The notes under the pieces: generated by a model
What the model was told of the DNA's origin: nothing
Seen by the model: the letters and a program-made list of their open reading frames with translations, nothing else
Database searches by the model: none
Made by a program: the position numbers and the translations under genes
In this document: positions 8,995-38,922 of the stretch, piece after piece
How positions within the stretch are numbered: the first letter of the stretch is position 1
How the letters are laid out: each line of letters opens with the position of its first letter
Origin: Clostridiaceae bacterium
GTDB taxonomy: Bacteria > Bacillota > Clostridia > SK-Y3
NCBI GenBank assembly: GCA_012735465.1
Contig: JAAYHJ010000016.1
Coordinates: 80,648-119,797 of the forward strand
Direction of reading: 5' to 3'
Length of the DNA: 39,150 nt

Positions 8995-9039
8995 ACTAAA
9001 AAACCCCGAACCTCATGCATAATGCACAAGGGACGAGGA
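8995..9039 (-). terminator. T-box-controlled transcription attenuator
   Basis: Minus-strand stem CCTCG...CCTTGTGCA / TGCATGAGG...CGGGG with a three-base loop and one internal mismatch, followed by GGGGTTTTTT. It begins shortly after the T-box motif, so the antiterminator and terminator are mutually exclusive in the standard way. Confidence 0.85.
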
Positions 9040-9294
9040 CAAAATCTCCGTGTTACCACCCTTCTTCACTCCTGTTTTGCAACAGAAGCCTCAGCGAGTA
9101 ATACATTACTCATACCTTAACGGGGTATACCGACACACCCTACTGAATATTTCAGGTGCATGGCTCCAGAGTGAGATTATTATATATGCCTCCTGTCGGT
9201 TCGCACCACCCACCGACTCTCTTAAAGGTACAGCATATTTTTTTCCTCTTTCATCGCCTTTATCACATAATATATAATTGTTCGAGTATAATTG
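8999..9294 (-). ncRNA. T-box leader (leucine-specific) of the ilv-leu operon
   Basis: The leader RNA senses uncharged tRNA and chooses between terminator and antiterminator. The conserved T-box GGGTGGTAACACGG lies at 9045-9061; its UGGU would pair with an ACCA tRNA end, as expected for tRNA-Leu. The Stem I base AGAGAGTCGG near 9220 and the GGAGCC after the specifier loop are present. The specifier codon is read as CTC (Leu) at 9173-9175, followed by the conserved purine A. The reading rests on position and the purine rule; ATC (Ile) one base earlier lacks that purine. The leader runs about 325 nt from the predicted start near 9294 to ilvB. Confidence 0.92.
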
Positions 9295-35972: not shown

Positions 35973-36022
35973 AAAGAACAGTTATACGGTTGTACTGCTG
36001 TCCAACCATATAACTGTTCTTT
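35973..36022 (-). terminator. Terminator after the PTS EIIC-like gene
   Basis: AAAGAACAGTTATACGGTTG pairs with CAACCATATAACTGTTCTTT over 20 bp with one wobble or mismatch, around a 10-base loop. Minus-strand continuation is TGTATA with few Ts, so it may act partly as a 3' stabiliser. It lies 14 bp after the stop. Confidence 0.75.
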
Positions 36023-36035
36023 CTTTATGATTCTG

Positions 36036-37127
36036 CTATAATTCAAGCTTCATATCCCCATATTTTATCCAGTTTATCTTTCTTAAAATTTCTGAAAAAA
36101 TGAAAGATAAAATAGCAGGAAATATAAAATGCATTAGAAGCACTTTTATAAATACATCAAAACCTGTGCCCATTGCATCGCTGCTAAACGTGGTAATTTG
36201 TCCAACCAATCCTGATGTGCCCATTCCGGCACCTGCAGGAATATTTTTCATACCAAATACAGCTGTGGCAATAGGTCCCAGTATTATACTGGTCAATACT
36301 GGAGGTATCCATATCTTAGGGTTTTTAATGGTATTTGGAACCTGGAGCATTGACGTTCCTATTCCTTGTGCAATCAATCCGGCAAAACCATTTTCTCTGA
36401 AACTTGCTACAGCAAAACCAATCATATGCGATGCACATCCAACGGTAGCTGCCCCGGCAGCCAGCCCGGACAGTTTAAGAGAAATGGCCAATGCAGCACT
36501 GCTAATAGGTAGCGTAAGCACGATACCCATGGTAGCCGAAACAAGTATACCCATGATAATGGGTTTCTGGGTAGTAGCAAAGTTTATAAAATTGCCTATT
36601 TGAGTCATAACCGATGCCATGAAAGGTCCTGCAAATAATCCGGCCAAACCACCTGTTATAATGGTAACCGAAGGCACTAAAACTATATCCACCTTTGTTT
36701 CTCCGGAAATCATTTTTCCAAATTCAGCACCTATTGCTGCTGCAATAAAAGCACTGACCGGTTCACCCGGCAGTGTAAAAAGGGCTGAACTGCCATCCAA
36801 TAAATATAGAGCCTGGGCACCTACTGCTCCTGTTATTGCAGAGGAATAAGCTACCAAGTTGGGTGCCTTCAAACCCACTGCTACCGCAATTCCAATGGCA
36901 GGGCCCATCAATACTTTTGCAACTCCTGCCAGAGAAACCAAAACCGGAATATTAAATCCTTTTCCCAATTGTTCCAATATAAGACCTACAATCAATGAAG
37001 AAAACAACCCAAAAGCCATTGCACTCAATGCGTCAATCCCATATCTTTTTACAGAAAACTCGATGTTTTTTCTTTTCAGAAATCCTTCCTTTTTACCTGG
37101 CTTTTTTACTTTTTTTTGTTTACCCAT
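36036..37127 (-). CDS. Orphan PTS EIIC-type membrane transporter (PTS_EIIC_2 family)
   Basis: A 363-residue polytopic membrane protein that resembles the PTS_EIIC_2 family (PF13303-like): repeated Gly/Ala-rich helices such as AKVLMGPAIGIAVAVGLKAPN, FTLPGEPVSAFIAAAIGAEFGKM, and PAGAGMGTSGLVGQI; about nine to ten helices. A basic cytosolic N-terminus (KQKKVKKPGKKEGFLKRK) precedes them. No EIIA or EIIB domain is fused or nearby, so it probably does not work as a standard phosphorylating sugar PTS. ATG at 37127 follows GGGGG by 7 nt. It has its own promoter overlapping the end of niaR, with a possible operator after it, which hints at a link with niacin. The substrate is unknown. Confidence 0.83.
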   Translation of the reverse strand: MGKQKKVKKPGKKEGFLKRKNIEFSVKRYGIDALSAMAFGLFSSLIVGLILEQLGKGFNIPVLVSLAGVAKVLMGPAIGIAVAVGLKAPNLVAYSSAITGAVGAQALYLLDGSSALFTLPGEPVSAFIAAAIGAEFGKMISGETKVDIVLVPSVTIITGGLAGLFAGPFMASVMTQIGNFINFATTQKPIIMGILVSATMGIVLTLPISSAALAISLKLSGLAAGAATVGCASHMIGFAVASFRENGFAGLIAQGIGTSMLQVPNTIKNPKIWIPPVLTSIILGPIATAVFGMKNIPAGAGMGTSGLVGQITTFSSDAMGTGFDVFIKVLLMHFIFPAILSFIFSEILRKINWIKYGDMKLEL

Positions 37128-37149
37128 AAACTGGCCCCCTTTGTGCATT

Positions 37150-37169
37150 TACACCTGTCTTGTCACCTA
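37150..37169 (-). promoter_or_regulatory. Candidate operator (possibly NiaR) upstream of the PTS-like gene
   Basis: ACACCTGTCTTGTCACCT lies at 37151-37168, just after the predicted transcription start. It holds two CACCT blocks 12 bp apart around TGTCTTG. Position fits a repressor roadblock. Assignment to NiaR rests on adjacency only; the site is not a clean palindrome. Confidence 0.4.
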
Positions 37170-37177
37170 ATAGAAAA

Positions 37178-37206
37178 AATATAACACATTTTATTTATCT
37201 TATCAA
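37178..37206 (-). promoter_or_regulatory. Promoter of the PTS-like gene, overlapping the niaR stop
   Basis: -35 TTGATA (37201-37206, inside the last niaR codons), 17-bp spacer, -10 TATATT (37178-37183). Predicted start near 37171. Confidence 0.7.
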
Positions 37207-37707
37207 GTATCCCTTTTGAAATAATTTTTCTTCTATTCTGGCCATTACTTCTTCATTTTTACACTCTATGGTATGTAAATGTATACCACCGGTAAGATCA
37301 CAAAGGGGCTTTACATCTTCTTTGCAGATTTTATCAATAAAATCATCCACATCTCTTCTTGAGCTGACCATTATATTACCGCAAATCTGCCCGTAAATAC
37401 TATGCTCCACAATAACATCAATGACCGTTCCTCCTTCATCTACAATAGTAATCAGTTCATCCCTTATATGTTCCTTTTCATGTTTGCTTACAATGGTTTT
37501 GCGAAATCCACCTTTTTCAAGTCTGTTAAGCATATACCCTTGCGGAGTAGCAATTATATCCACACCGGCAGCTCTTAATACTGCAATGTCCTGGACAATA
37601 ACCTGCCGGCTGACACCTAACATGGACGCCAGTTGTGAACCGCTGATTGCAATAGGCTCTTCTTCCAGTATTTCAGTAATCTTATTTCGCCTTTGCACCG
37701 TATTCAC
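37195..37707 (-). CDS. niaR: NiaR-type transcriptional repressor of NAD/niacin genes
   Basis: A 170-residue regulator with an N-terminal winged helix-turn-helix (about 6-60, SGSQLASMLGVSRQVIVQDIAVLRAAG, a HTH_11/DeoR-like recogniser) and a C-terminal 3H domain (about 70-170) whose conserved His lie near EHIRDELITIV, VIVEHSIYGQI and TGGIHLHTIE. In this family nicotinic acid is the corepressor that closes niacin salvage or transport genes. The start is GTG at 37707 after AGAGGTGATTTAA; it overlaps the end of the preceding glycosylase gene by 26 bp, so they are cotranscribed. No nadABC genes are nearby; the only candidate target in the window is the PTS-like gene downstream. Confidence 0.9.
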   Translation of the reverse strand: MNTVQRRNKITEILEEEPIAISGSQLASMLGVSRQVIVQDIAVLRAAGVDIIATPQGYMLNRLEKGGFRKTIVSKHEKEHIRDELITIVDEGGTVIDVIVEHSIYGQICGNIMVSSRRDVDDFIDKICKEDVKPLCDLTGGIHLHTIECKNEEVMARIEEKLFQKGYLIR

Positions 37708-38293
37708 TTAAATCACCTCTTAAAATTTTCTTTAGTTTTTCAATATCTTTTATATAAGTTTCTCTTAAACTTCTGTCATATATGATGCTGGCAGGATGAT
37801 AAAGGGGAAATAATTTATATTCCCTGTCCATTAGCAATTGTTTTCTCACTTCACCATGAACATCTCCAATTTTTATATTGTTCTCACCAGTTATTGCTTT
37901 TAAAGGAACATTTCCTAAGGTAACAATGTAACGGGGATTAATAATTAATATTTCTTTTATAAGATATTCCCTGTTTTTTTGTATTTCTTCCATTGTTGCA
38001 GGACGATTAACCAATCTCCCGGTTTTTGGATTTATTTTTGACAGCCTATACTTAATGGCATTTGTAATATACAGTTCATTTCTATCCATACCCAGTATAT
38101 TTAAAAATTCATCAAGGTTTTTCCCGGCCATACCGACAAAGGGTCTGGACAACCTTACTTCCTCCTTGCCGGGAGCTTCACCAACCAGCATTAATAGGGA
38201 GTCGACATTACCTTCTCCTAAAACAACTTCCCTATCTTTATATTCTTTTATGTATTCTTCATACAGTTTACTTATTGGTTTCTCTTTATCCAA
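37682..38293 (-). CDS. Uracil-DNA glycosylase family protein lacking Fe-S cysteines
   Basis: Second of two tandem UDG-superfamily proteins. It keeps motif A (VGEAPGKEEVRLSRPFVGMAGKNL), the central LGNVPLKAITG and motif B YHPASII. All four cluster cysteines of family 4 are missing: the counterpart of KCRP is KYRL, that of CIPYL is NREYL, and no CxxC precedes motif A. Start is uncertain: TTG at 38293 (203 residues, after GCGAGGA) begins near the usual LYEEYIKEYKD region; a longer frame from ATG 38344 would add a Lys/Asn-rich stretch and overlap the upstream stop. It overlaps niaR by 26 bp. Whether it excises uracil or another base cannot be told. Confidence 0.85.
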   Translation of the reverse strand: MDKEKPISKLYEEYIKEYKDREVVLGEGNVDSLLMLVGEAPGKEEVRLSRPFVGMAGKNLDEFLNILGMDRNELYITNAIKYRLSKINPKTGRLVNRPATMEEIQKNREYLIKEILIINPRYIVTLGNVPLKAITGENNIKIGDVHGEVRKQLLMDREYKLFPLYHPASIIYDRSLRETYIKDIEKLKKILRGDLSEYGAKAK

Positions 38294-38346
38294 AGACCGT
38301 TCCTCGCTCTCATAAAATAAATTTACTTTATTTATTTTACACATAA

Positions 38347-38922
38347 TCACAATAAATTACCGGCTGACAGCTCATTTATTTTTTCTTTCACTTTTTTTAA
38401 ATCCTGCCAGAAAGGAATTTTTTTTGATTCGTCCCTCAGTAATGCTGCCGGATGAAAGGTAGCAATAAGCCAGTACCCTTTTCTTTCTATCCACTGTCCC
38501 CGTATTTCGCTAATCCGAGCATTATTATCTATAATATATTTCATAGCTGTGGCACCAAGACATACAATTATCCTGGGTTTTATTAAGGCTACCTGATTCC
38601 TAAGGTAAGGTATACATGCCTGAGCCTCTTCTTCCAATGGAACCCTGTTCCCAGGCGGCCTGCACTTTACAATATTTGCAATAAACACATCTTCCCTTTT
38701 TAAACCTATTGCTTCAATACCCTTCGTTAGCAGCTGTCCTGCCCTGCCTACAAAAGGTCTTCCCGTGCTGTCCTCATCTGCTCCCGGACCCTCACCTACA
38801 AAAATTAAAGAAGCATTCCTATTACCTTCACCAAACACAACTTTTTTCCTTGACTGCGATAATGCACATTTTGTACATTGGCAACATTGTTTCTCTAAAT
38901 CATCCCAGTTTAACCAAGCCAA
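38347..38922 (-). CDS. Family 4 (Fe-S) uracil-DNA glycosylase
   Basis: Removes uracil from DNA to begin base-excision repair. The 191 residues carry the four cluster ligands Cys16 and Cys19 (CTKC), Cys87 (VKCRPPGNR) and Cys103 (CIPYL), the active-site motif A GEGPGADED (43-51) followed by GRPFVGRAGQLL, and motif B FHPAALLRD. The length is normal for the family (about 190-220). The start is TTG at 38922, 7 nt after GAGGTG; no ATG is placed better. It begins an operon with the second glycosylase and niaR, from the promoter at 38948-38977. A homologous duplication probably produced the tandem pair long ago. Confidence 0.93.
   Translation of the reverse strand: MAWLNWDDLEKQCCQCTKCALSQSRKKVVFGEGNRNASLIFVGEGPGADEDSTGRPFVGRAGQLLTKGIEAIGLKREDVFIANIVKCRPPGNRVPLEEEAQACIPYLRNQVALIKPRIIVCLGATAMKYIIDNNARISEIRGQWIERKGYWLIATFHPAALLRDESKKIPFWQDLKKVKEKINELSAGNLL

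Follow-up and report, generated by a model that had tools for sequence, protein, structure and literature searches.

NiaR (YrxA) is a niacin-responsive repressor whose targets are nad genes and vitamin B3 transporters (PMC5343564, PMC7713382). Its type-I operator is TGT-N4-ACA (PMC7713382), and both the type-I box and the response to niacin are documented (PMC7713382, PMC5343564). Three families of niacin transporters, predicted or proven, have been named for this regulon: NiaP, NiaX and NiaY (PMC5343564, PMC6593275). NiaY, the third predicted family, was described in five Bacilli and Clostridia by Rodionov et al. 2008, as that work is cited in PMC5343564 and PMC6593275. For only about one in four of the gut bacteria that need external B3 could specific vitamin B3 transporters be assigned (PMC6593275).

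Here we describe a locus in which niaR adjoins a gene for a membrane protein of the PF13303 (PTS_EIIC_2) family, referred to below as the EIIC gene. The window, the whole stretch of DNA that was analysed, comprises 39,150 nucleotides of contig JAAYHJ010000016.1 from a Clostridiaceae bacterium; its features are listed in Table 1. We consider it highly probable that NiaR, together with niacin, represses an EIIC-fold importer of niacin (nicotinate or nicotinamide) that works without PTS phosphorylation.

niaR lies next to a stand-alone EIIC gene

The niaR product has an HTH_11 domain and a complete 3H domain (1-97/97; Pfam). It is homologous to Thermotoga maritima NiaR (1j5y/9ebr) across 165 residues (E 6e-43 to 7e-43) and to B. 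halodurans NiaR (7cv0/7cv2; E 6e-29), and three histidines (VEH, HLH) are conserved and aligned with the solved NiaR proteins. Based on the complete 3H domain and on this homology, histidines included, the protein is a NiaR orthologue, for which niacin-dependent DNA binding is predicted; it is the sole 3H protein of the 2.32-Mb genome. A NiaR box indicative of autoregulation was sought upstream of niaR in this genome and none was found. Two different family-4 uracil-DNA glycosylase genes stand in tandem at 37682-38922 (minus strand), and the GTG start of niaR lies inside the second, overlapping its end by 26 bp. Elsewhere in the window, a T-box leader (Rfam RF00230, 118.7 bits) is present at 9026-9263 on the minus strand.

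The EIIC protein matches the PF13303 profile with 335.5 bits (cut-off 28.9, E 4e-100), and no other PF13303 gene occurs in the genome. The sequence-only reading of this DNA, which had placed niaR beside an orphan EIIC-like gene, is thereby borne out. The same reading had remarked on the lack of EIIA and EIIB partners. Pfam analysis found neither domain fused to the EIIC protein, which has a single domain, and no EIIA or EIIB gene was seen beside it in the window or came to notice among the ORFs listed for related loci; the EIIC protein thus lacks the fused or adjacent EIIB and EIIA partners of a functional PTS permease. The longest EIIC frame starts at an ATG within the operator, and ATG 37127 is preceded by a strong ribosome site, AAAGGGGG (GGGGG at 37135-37139); for both reasons, ATG 37127 is likely to be the true start. 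A terminator-like inverted repeat just beyond the stop codon suggests that the EIIC transcript is monocistronic.

A sequence search of solved structures with the EIIC protein gave no relative, and fold comparison was therefore used. The AlphaFold2 model (pLDDT 92.6; alignment of 52 natural sequences) was closest to Escherichia coli PtsG IIC (8qsr; TM 0.56 by query, probability 1.00), with ChbC (3qnq) also among the structural matches. It follows from the modelled fold that the EIIC protein is predicted to be a transporter.

Table 1. Features of the niaR-EIIC locus (positions in the window)
Feature	Position	Strand	Basis or remark
Terminator-like imperfect inverted repeat AGAACAGTTATA...TATAACTGTTCT	35975-36020	-	Just beyond EIIC stop; absent from terminator-scan list
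PF13303 (PTS_EIIC_2) membrane protein, putative niacin transporter	36036-37148	-	Profile match; longest ORF from ATG 37148
Operator box 2 AGGTGTAAATGCA, core TGTAAATGCA	37144-37156	-	Same orientation, 12 bp after box 1
Operator box 1 AGGTGACAAGACA, core TGACAAGACA	37156-37168	-	Comparative motif
-10 hexamer TATATT	37178-37183	-	17-bp spacer from -35
niaR, niacin-responsive repressor	37195-37707	-	HTH_11 and 3H domains; start GTG 37707, stop TAA 37195
-35 hexamer TTGATA	37201-37206	-	Leu-Ile codons (TTG ATA) just ahead of niaR stop

A promoter within the end of niaR and a tandem operator

A TTGATA-17-TATATT promoter overlapping the end of niaR, as noted in the sequence-only reading, is present at 37206-37178, with its -35 hexamer in the last niaR codons. 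Counts of sigma-70-like promoter matches were dropped as evidence, such matches being no commoner than in shuffled sequences (5 found vs 5.1 expected); confidence in the EIIC promoter comes from its conservation in relatives. The Leu codon close to the C-terminus is TTG in 22 of 26 niaR genes with a box no more than 30 bp from the niaR stop, compared with 7 of 26 other niaR genes (p 6e-5, kinship ignored), and the hexamers encoded in this way are TTGATA, TTGATT, TTGTTA and TTGCTT. This bias towards TTG indicates that the overlap of the repressor gene with the target promoter is conserved.

Nine bases past the -10 hexamer lies the tandem operator AGGTGACAAGACAGGTGTAAATGCA (37168 to 37144), which is made up of two boxes that share one orientation and is located just past the expected transcription start and upstream of ATG 37127. 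The 18-mer ACACCTGTCTTGTCACCT (37151-37168), which had been singled out earlier as a likely operator just after the predicted start, is the opposite strand of part of this element. Box 1 departs from the published core TGT-N4-ACA by one base (TGA-N4-ACA, 5/6), as it does in most genomes, and box 2 likewise departs by one (TGT-N4-GCA, 5/6); in relatives, one box or both match the core exactly. Across 18 loci with TGACAAGACA, mostly obtained by the protein search and upstream of EIIC, with a few upstream of nad genes, the match to TGT-N4-ACA at +12 averages 5.17/6, whereas most other offsets give about 1 to 2.

Within the 2.32-Mb genome RGGTGWCWWGACA occurs exactly once, at the EIIC promoter, and the eight single-mismatch sites of the operator motif are all within coding sequence. 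At two mismatches the motif was not enriched in this genome over a reversed control (146/119 vs 183/159). Mismatch searches of this genome alone were dropped for that reason, and the proof of the operator is comparative.

The operator tracks niaR across genomes

The Clostridia sample comprised 391 genomes, with niaR in 121 (a weak match was dropped), EIIC in 172 and both in 67; cross-genome counts ignore phylogenetic kinship. Of these 67 genomes, 18, from 10 families, have the two genes side by side, with EIIC downstream of niaR in 16 and divergent in 2, and a nineteenth adjacent copy, frameshifted, is likely in genome G363 (L169). Chance adjacency in genomes of such size is estimated at about one per thousand pairs, so that even a few cases exceed chance. 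A box was present upstream of all 18 adjacent EIIC genes by inspection and of 16 by automatic count, where the exceptions include a locus with the variant tandem TGACATTACA-GC-TGACAATACA (L023) and one with a mis-called start (L051). In these adjacent loci the operator comes after the -10 hexamer.

The element also stands upstream of nadA in genome G210 (L095), and AGGTGTNNAGACA does so in two genomes from the window's own family (L083, L090). An exact scan with AGGTGACAAGACANVTGTANWNRCA against 84,980 genomes (257 Gb) returned 36 matches in 35 stretches, vs about 0.35 calculated by chance. Twenty-three precede an EIIC homologue on the same strand by 2-122 bp, seven lie upstream of nadA (nadABC) and one lies upstream of a NiaP-like MFS gene in Anaerospora hongkongensis; two are cut off where the contig ends right behind niaR, and three are elsewhere. 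EIIC is within or directly beside a niaR-nadA-nadB-nadC cluster in L150, L151 and L154. The operator derived from niaR/EIIC neighbourhoods in Clostridia, the check that the sequence-only reading had proposed, includes 37151-37168 and is common to nadABC and the NiaP-like gene.

According to the same reading, a transporter family unlinked to niaR in most genomes and lacking a shared operator would refute its idea. The former is observed, the genes being adjacent in only 18 of the 172 EIIC-positive genomes, but the latter is not, as unlinked copies share the operator when niaR is present. For EIIC orthologues of at least 40% identity that are not adjacent to niaR, a box within about 170 bp upstream was found in 18 of 38 niaR-positive vs 1 of 58 niaR-negative genomes (p 3.5e-8). 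The sole niaR-negative genome with a box (G284) is an 86%-complete assembly. No recognisable box was found in this interval in 20 of the 38 niaR-positive genomes, in two of which the contig ended within about 60 bp. In a tree of 56 EIIC proteins, box and niaR linkage are scattered across the entire family and have been lost or gained several times, and NiaR control may therefore be ancestral in this set or have been gained repeatedly. The shared operator and its tracking of niaR support the regulation suggested earlier, and make it close to certain, in computational terms, that NiaR regulates the EIIC gene through predicted binding at this element.

Several individual loci with the operator were also observed. 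In A. hongkongensis (L160:1420-4716), the NiaP-like gene that follows the operator lies about 1.4 kb from niaR, on its downstream side, and encodes a 446-aa protein of the aromatic acid/H+ symport family. Two Clostridiales MAGs (L153:2222-3793, L162:3213-4792), in both of which NiaR is present, have the operator about 113 bp ahead of a gene for an MttB-family methyltransferase (PF06253), which is followed by a Na+/solute symporter gene (PF00474); NiaR-controlled demethylation of trigonelline (N-methylnicotinate) to nicotinate is possible there. A record named Lutibacter sp. B2 (Bacteroidota; L164) contains a Clostridia-type niaR-operator-EIIC locus, and this assembly is probably mislabelled or contaminated.

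The EIIC gene accompanies loss of de novo NAD synthesis

nadA is present in 50 of 172 EIIC-positive vs 108 of 219 EIIC-negative genomes (p 5e-5, 391 Clostridia, kinship ignored). Among niaR-negative genomes it is missing in 94 of 105 with EIIC vs 89 of 165 without (p 3e-10, again ignoring kinship). This scarcity of nadA indicates that the transporter accompanies loss of de novo NAD synthesis. Co-occurrence with NAPRTase (PF04095) was not used as statistics, because many true pncB genes score near the threshold.

In the window genome nadA was sought and is absent, and the search for NadC gave only a sub-threshold match that, by position and reading, is inside a tryptophan-pathway gene. pncB is present, and no NiaR box was found near it. 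With nadABC gone, the EIIC gene is the only clear NiaR target, and NiaR appears to serve this gene alone. For nicotinamide riboside the genome also has an NrtR-PnuC-NadR operon, and of its five ECF S components one goes with an FMN riboswitch, another, of folate type, with a THF riboswitch, and three have no assigned substrate; the riboside route and these last three mean that EIIC need not be the only entry for vitamin B3. One of the unassigned S components (G000:C94:59466-59933, L181) is possibly similar to one encoded divergently from EIIC in genome G039 (L187:2078-3855), which also has no assigned substrate.

The neighbours of EIIC in niaR-less genomes are mostly unrelated to NAD, and Rfam searches of 19 loci, mostly of niaR-less EIIC genes, found no NAD riboswitch and no other vitamin element. 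In genome G298, which is without niaR, EIIC adjoins nrtR and pncB with promoters that are alike (L184:1100-4941), which suggests NrtR control of EIIC in this genome and points, independently but as a single case, to a role in NAD metabolism. NrtR as a general partner was rejected, as it is adjacent in one genome only. Other neighbours include an OLE RNA gene (RF01071, 489 bits) directly adjoining EIIC in G017 (L186:3856-4530) and, by eye from the ORF list, a tRNA-dihydrouridine synthase-like gene after EIIC in three niaR-less genomes (L188, L189, L191).

Proposed mechanism and alternative explanations

In the mechanism that we propose, NiaR would act as a dimeric repressor that binds niacin via its 3H domain. 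When niacin is plentiful, NiaR would occupy both boxes of the tandem, which extend from position +2 of the EIIC promoter to about +27, and block transcription; when niacin is scarce, it would be released and the transporter made. The EIIC protein would then most likely import unphosphorylated nicotinate (or nicotinamide), either by facilitated diffusion or in symport with an ion, and the nicotinate phosphoribosyltransferase PncB would trap imported nicotinate as nicotinate mononucleotide for NAD. We infer nicotinate or nicotinamide as the substrate because of the regulon to which the gene belongs, because de novo synthesis has been lost while PncB is present, and because the NiaP-like gene can stand in the same place. 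Physical binding of NiaR, the direction of transport and the energy coupling of the EIIC protein are predictions of the same kind, and coupling without phosphorylation is suggested because EIIA and EIIB are missing. With more reserve, we lean towards a broader reading, in which a PTS EIIC fold has been re-used as a phosphorylation-free, stand-alone vitamin B3 transporter that is a main niacin entry of many Clostridia without NAD synthesis, under a conserved tandem NiaR operator and a promoter partly encoded by niaR.

Regulation alone does not name a substrate: NiaR of S. pneumoniae controls pnuC too (PMC5343564), and EIIC is found in nadA-positive (50/172) as well as nadA-negative genomes. The NiaR-regulated EIIC protein might thus carry another NAD precursor or pyridine, such as quinolinate, nicotinamide riboside or a nicotinate conjugate. 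This is unlikely, since in the window genome quinolinate would be useless as NadC is absent, the riboside has its separate NrtR-controlled PnuC-NadR route, and PncB is present. A role as a membrane-bound sensor or regulator is very unlikely, given the complete EIIC transport fold, with no signalling domain, and a position and operator shared with the NiaP-like transporter gene (L160), even though family members such as SAUSA300_0310 of Staphylococcus aureus are annotated as the perfringolysin O regulator PfoR (PMC13227979). The same low probability applies to an exporter of excess pyridines, which a repressor acting with niacin would shut off just when needed (PMC5343564, PMC7713382). That EIIC is a chance neighbour, the operator belonging to another factor and the protein moving a sugar, is extremely unlikely: the Pfam name PTS EIIC and the location of most Clostridia EIIC copies away from niaR would fit, but nadA/nadABC and EIIC have one operator in common, whose occurrence follows that of niaR across genomes, no EIIA or EIIB gene is near, and EIIC is strongly associated with nadA loss. 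NiaR-controlled niacin import is the reading that we retain.

Comparison with known systems

A family present in 172 of 391 Clostridia and tied to NiaR and nadA loss would fill part of the vitamin B3 transporter gap, and would show a sugar-PTS membrane domain acting as a vitamin carrier without phosphorylation. Re-annotation is suggested for proteins that currently bear the name 'PTS EIIC' or 'PfoR toxin regulator'. PfoR and other COG3641-type membrane proteins presumably belong to the same broad PF13303 family; unlike the EIIC protein as read here, PfoR members are annotated as a toxin regulator. In blood, pfoR counts among the fitness genes of S. aureus, as does the nicotinamidase gene pncA (PMC13227979).

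The locus resembles the type-I NiaR regulons of B. subtilis, S. pneumoniae and B. halodurans in having a NiaR orthologue with a 3H domain and a box near TGT-N4-ACA, and differs from them in the tandem boxes at 12-bp spacing, in TGA for TGT in box 1 and in the transporter being the only clear target in the window genome. NiaY, as described in the papers that cite it, is a membrane transporter predicted to be controlled by NiaR in Bacilli and Clostridia, and in this the EIIC protein resembles it. The literature texts searched do not name the protein family of NiaY, and no mention of BH3254 or a 'nicotinate-regulated transporter' was found in them. We take NiaY to be the SEED 'predicted nicotinate-regulated transporter BH3254', believed to be of the PF13303 family, and the EIIC protein probably belongs to the NiaY family. 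If NiaY is the PF13303 family, the core idea has already been published as a prediction, and what this analysis adds is its scale, a tandem operator, a promoter located within niaR, the association with nadA loss and the comparison with the EIIC fold.

NiaP (MFS) and NiaX (ECF S component) are likewise NiaR-regulated vitamin B3 transporters, and a NiaP-like gene carries this operator in L160, but their folds are unrelated to the EIIC fold. With the EIIC proteins of the glucose superfamily, PtsG and ChbC, the EIIC protein shares the overall fold, yet it differs from them in having no EIIA or EIIB, about 13% identity and no sign of phosphorylation coupling.
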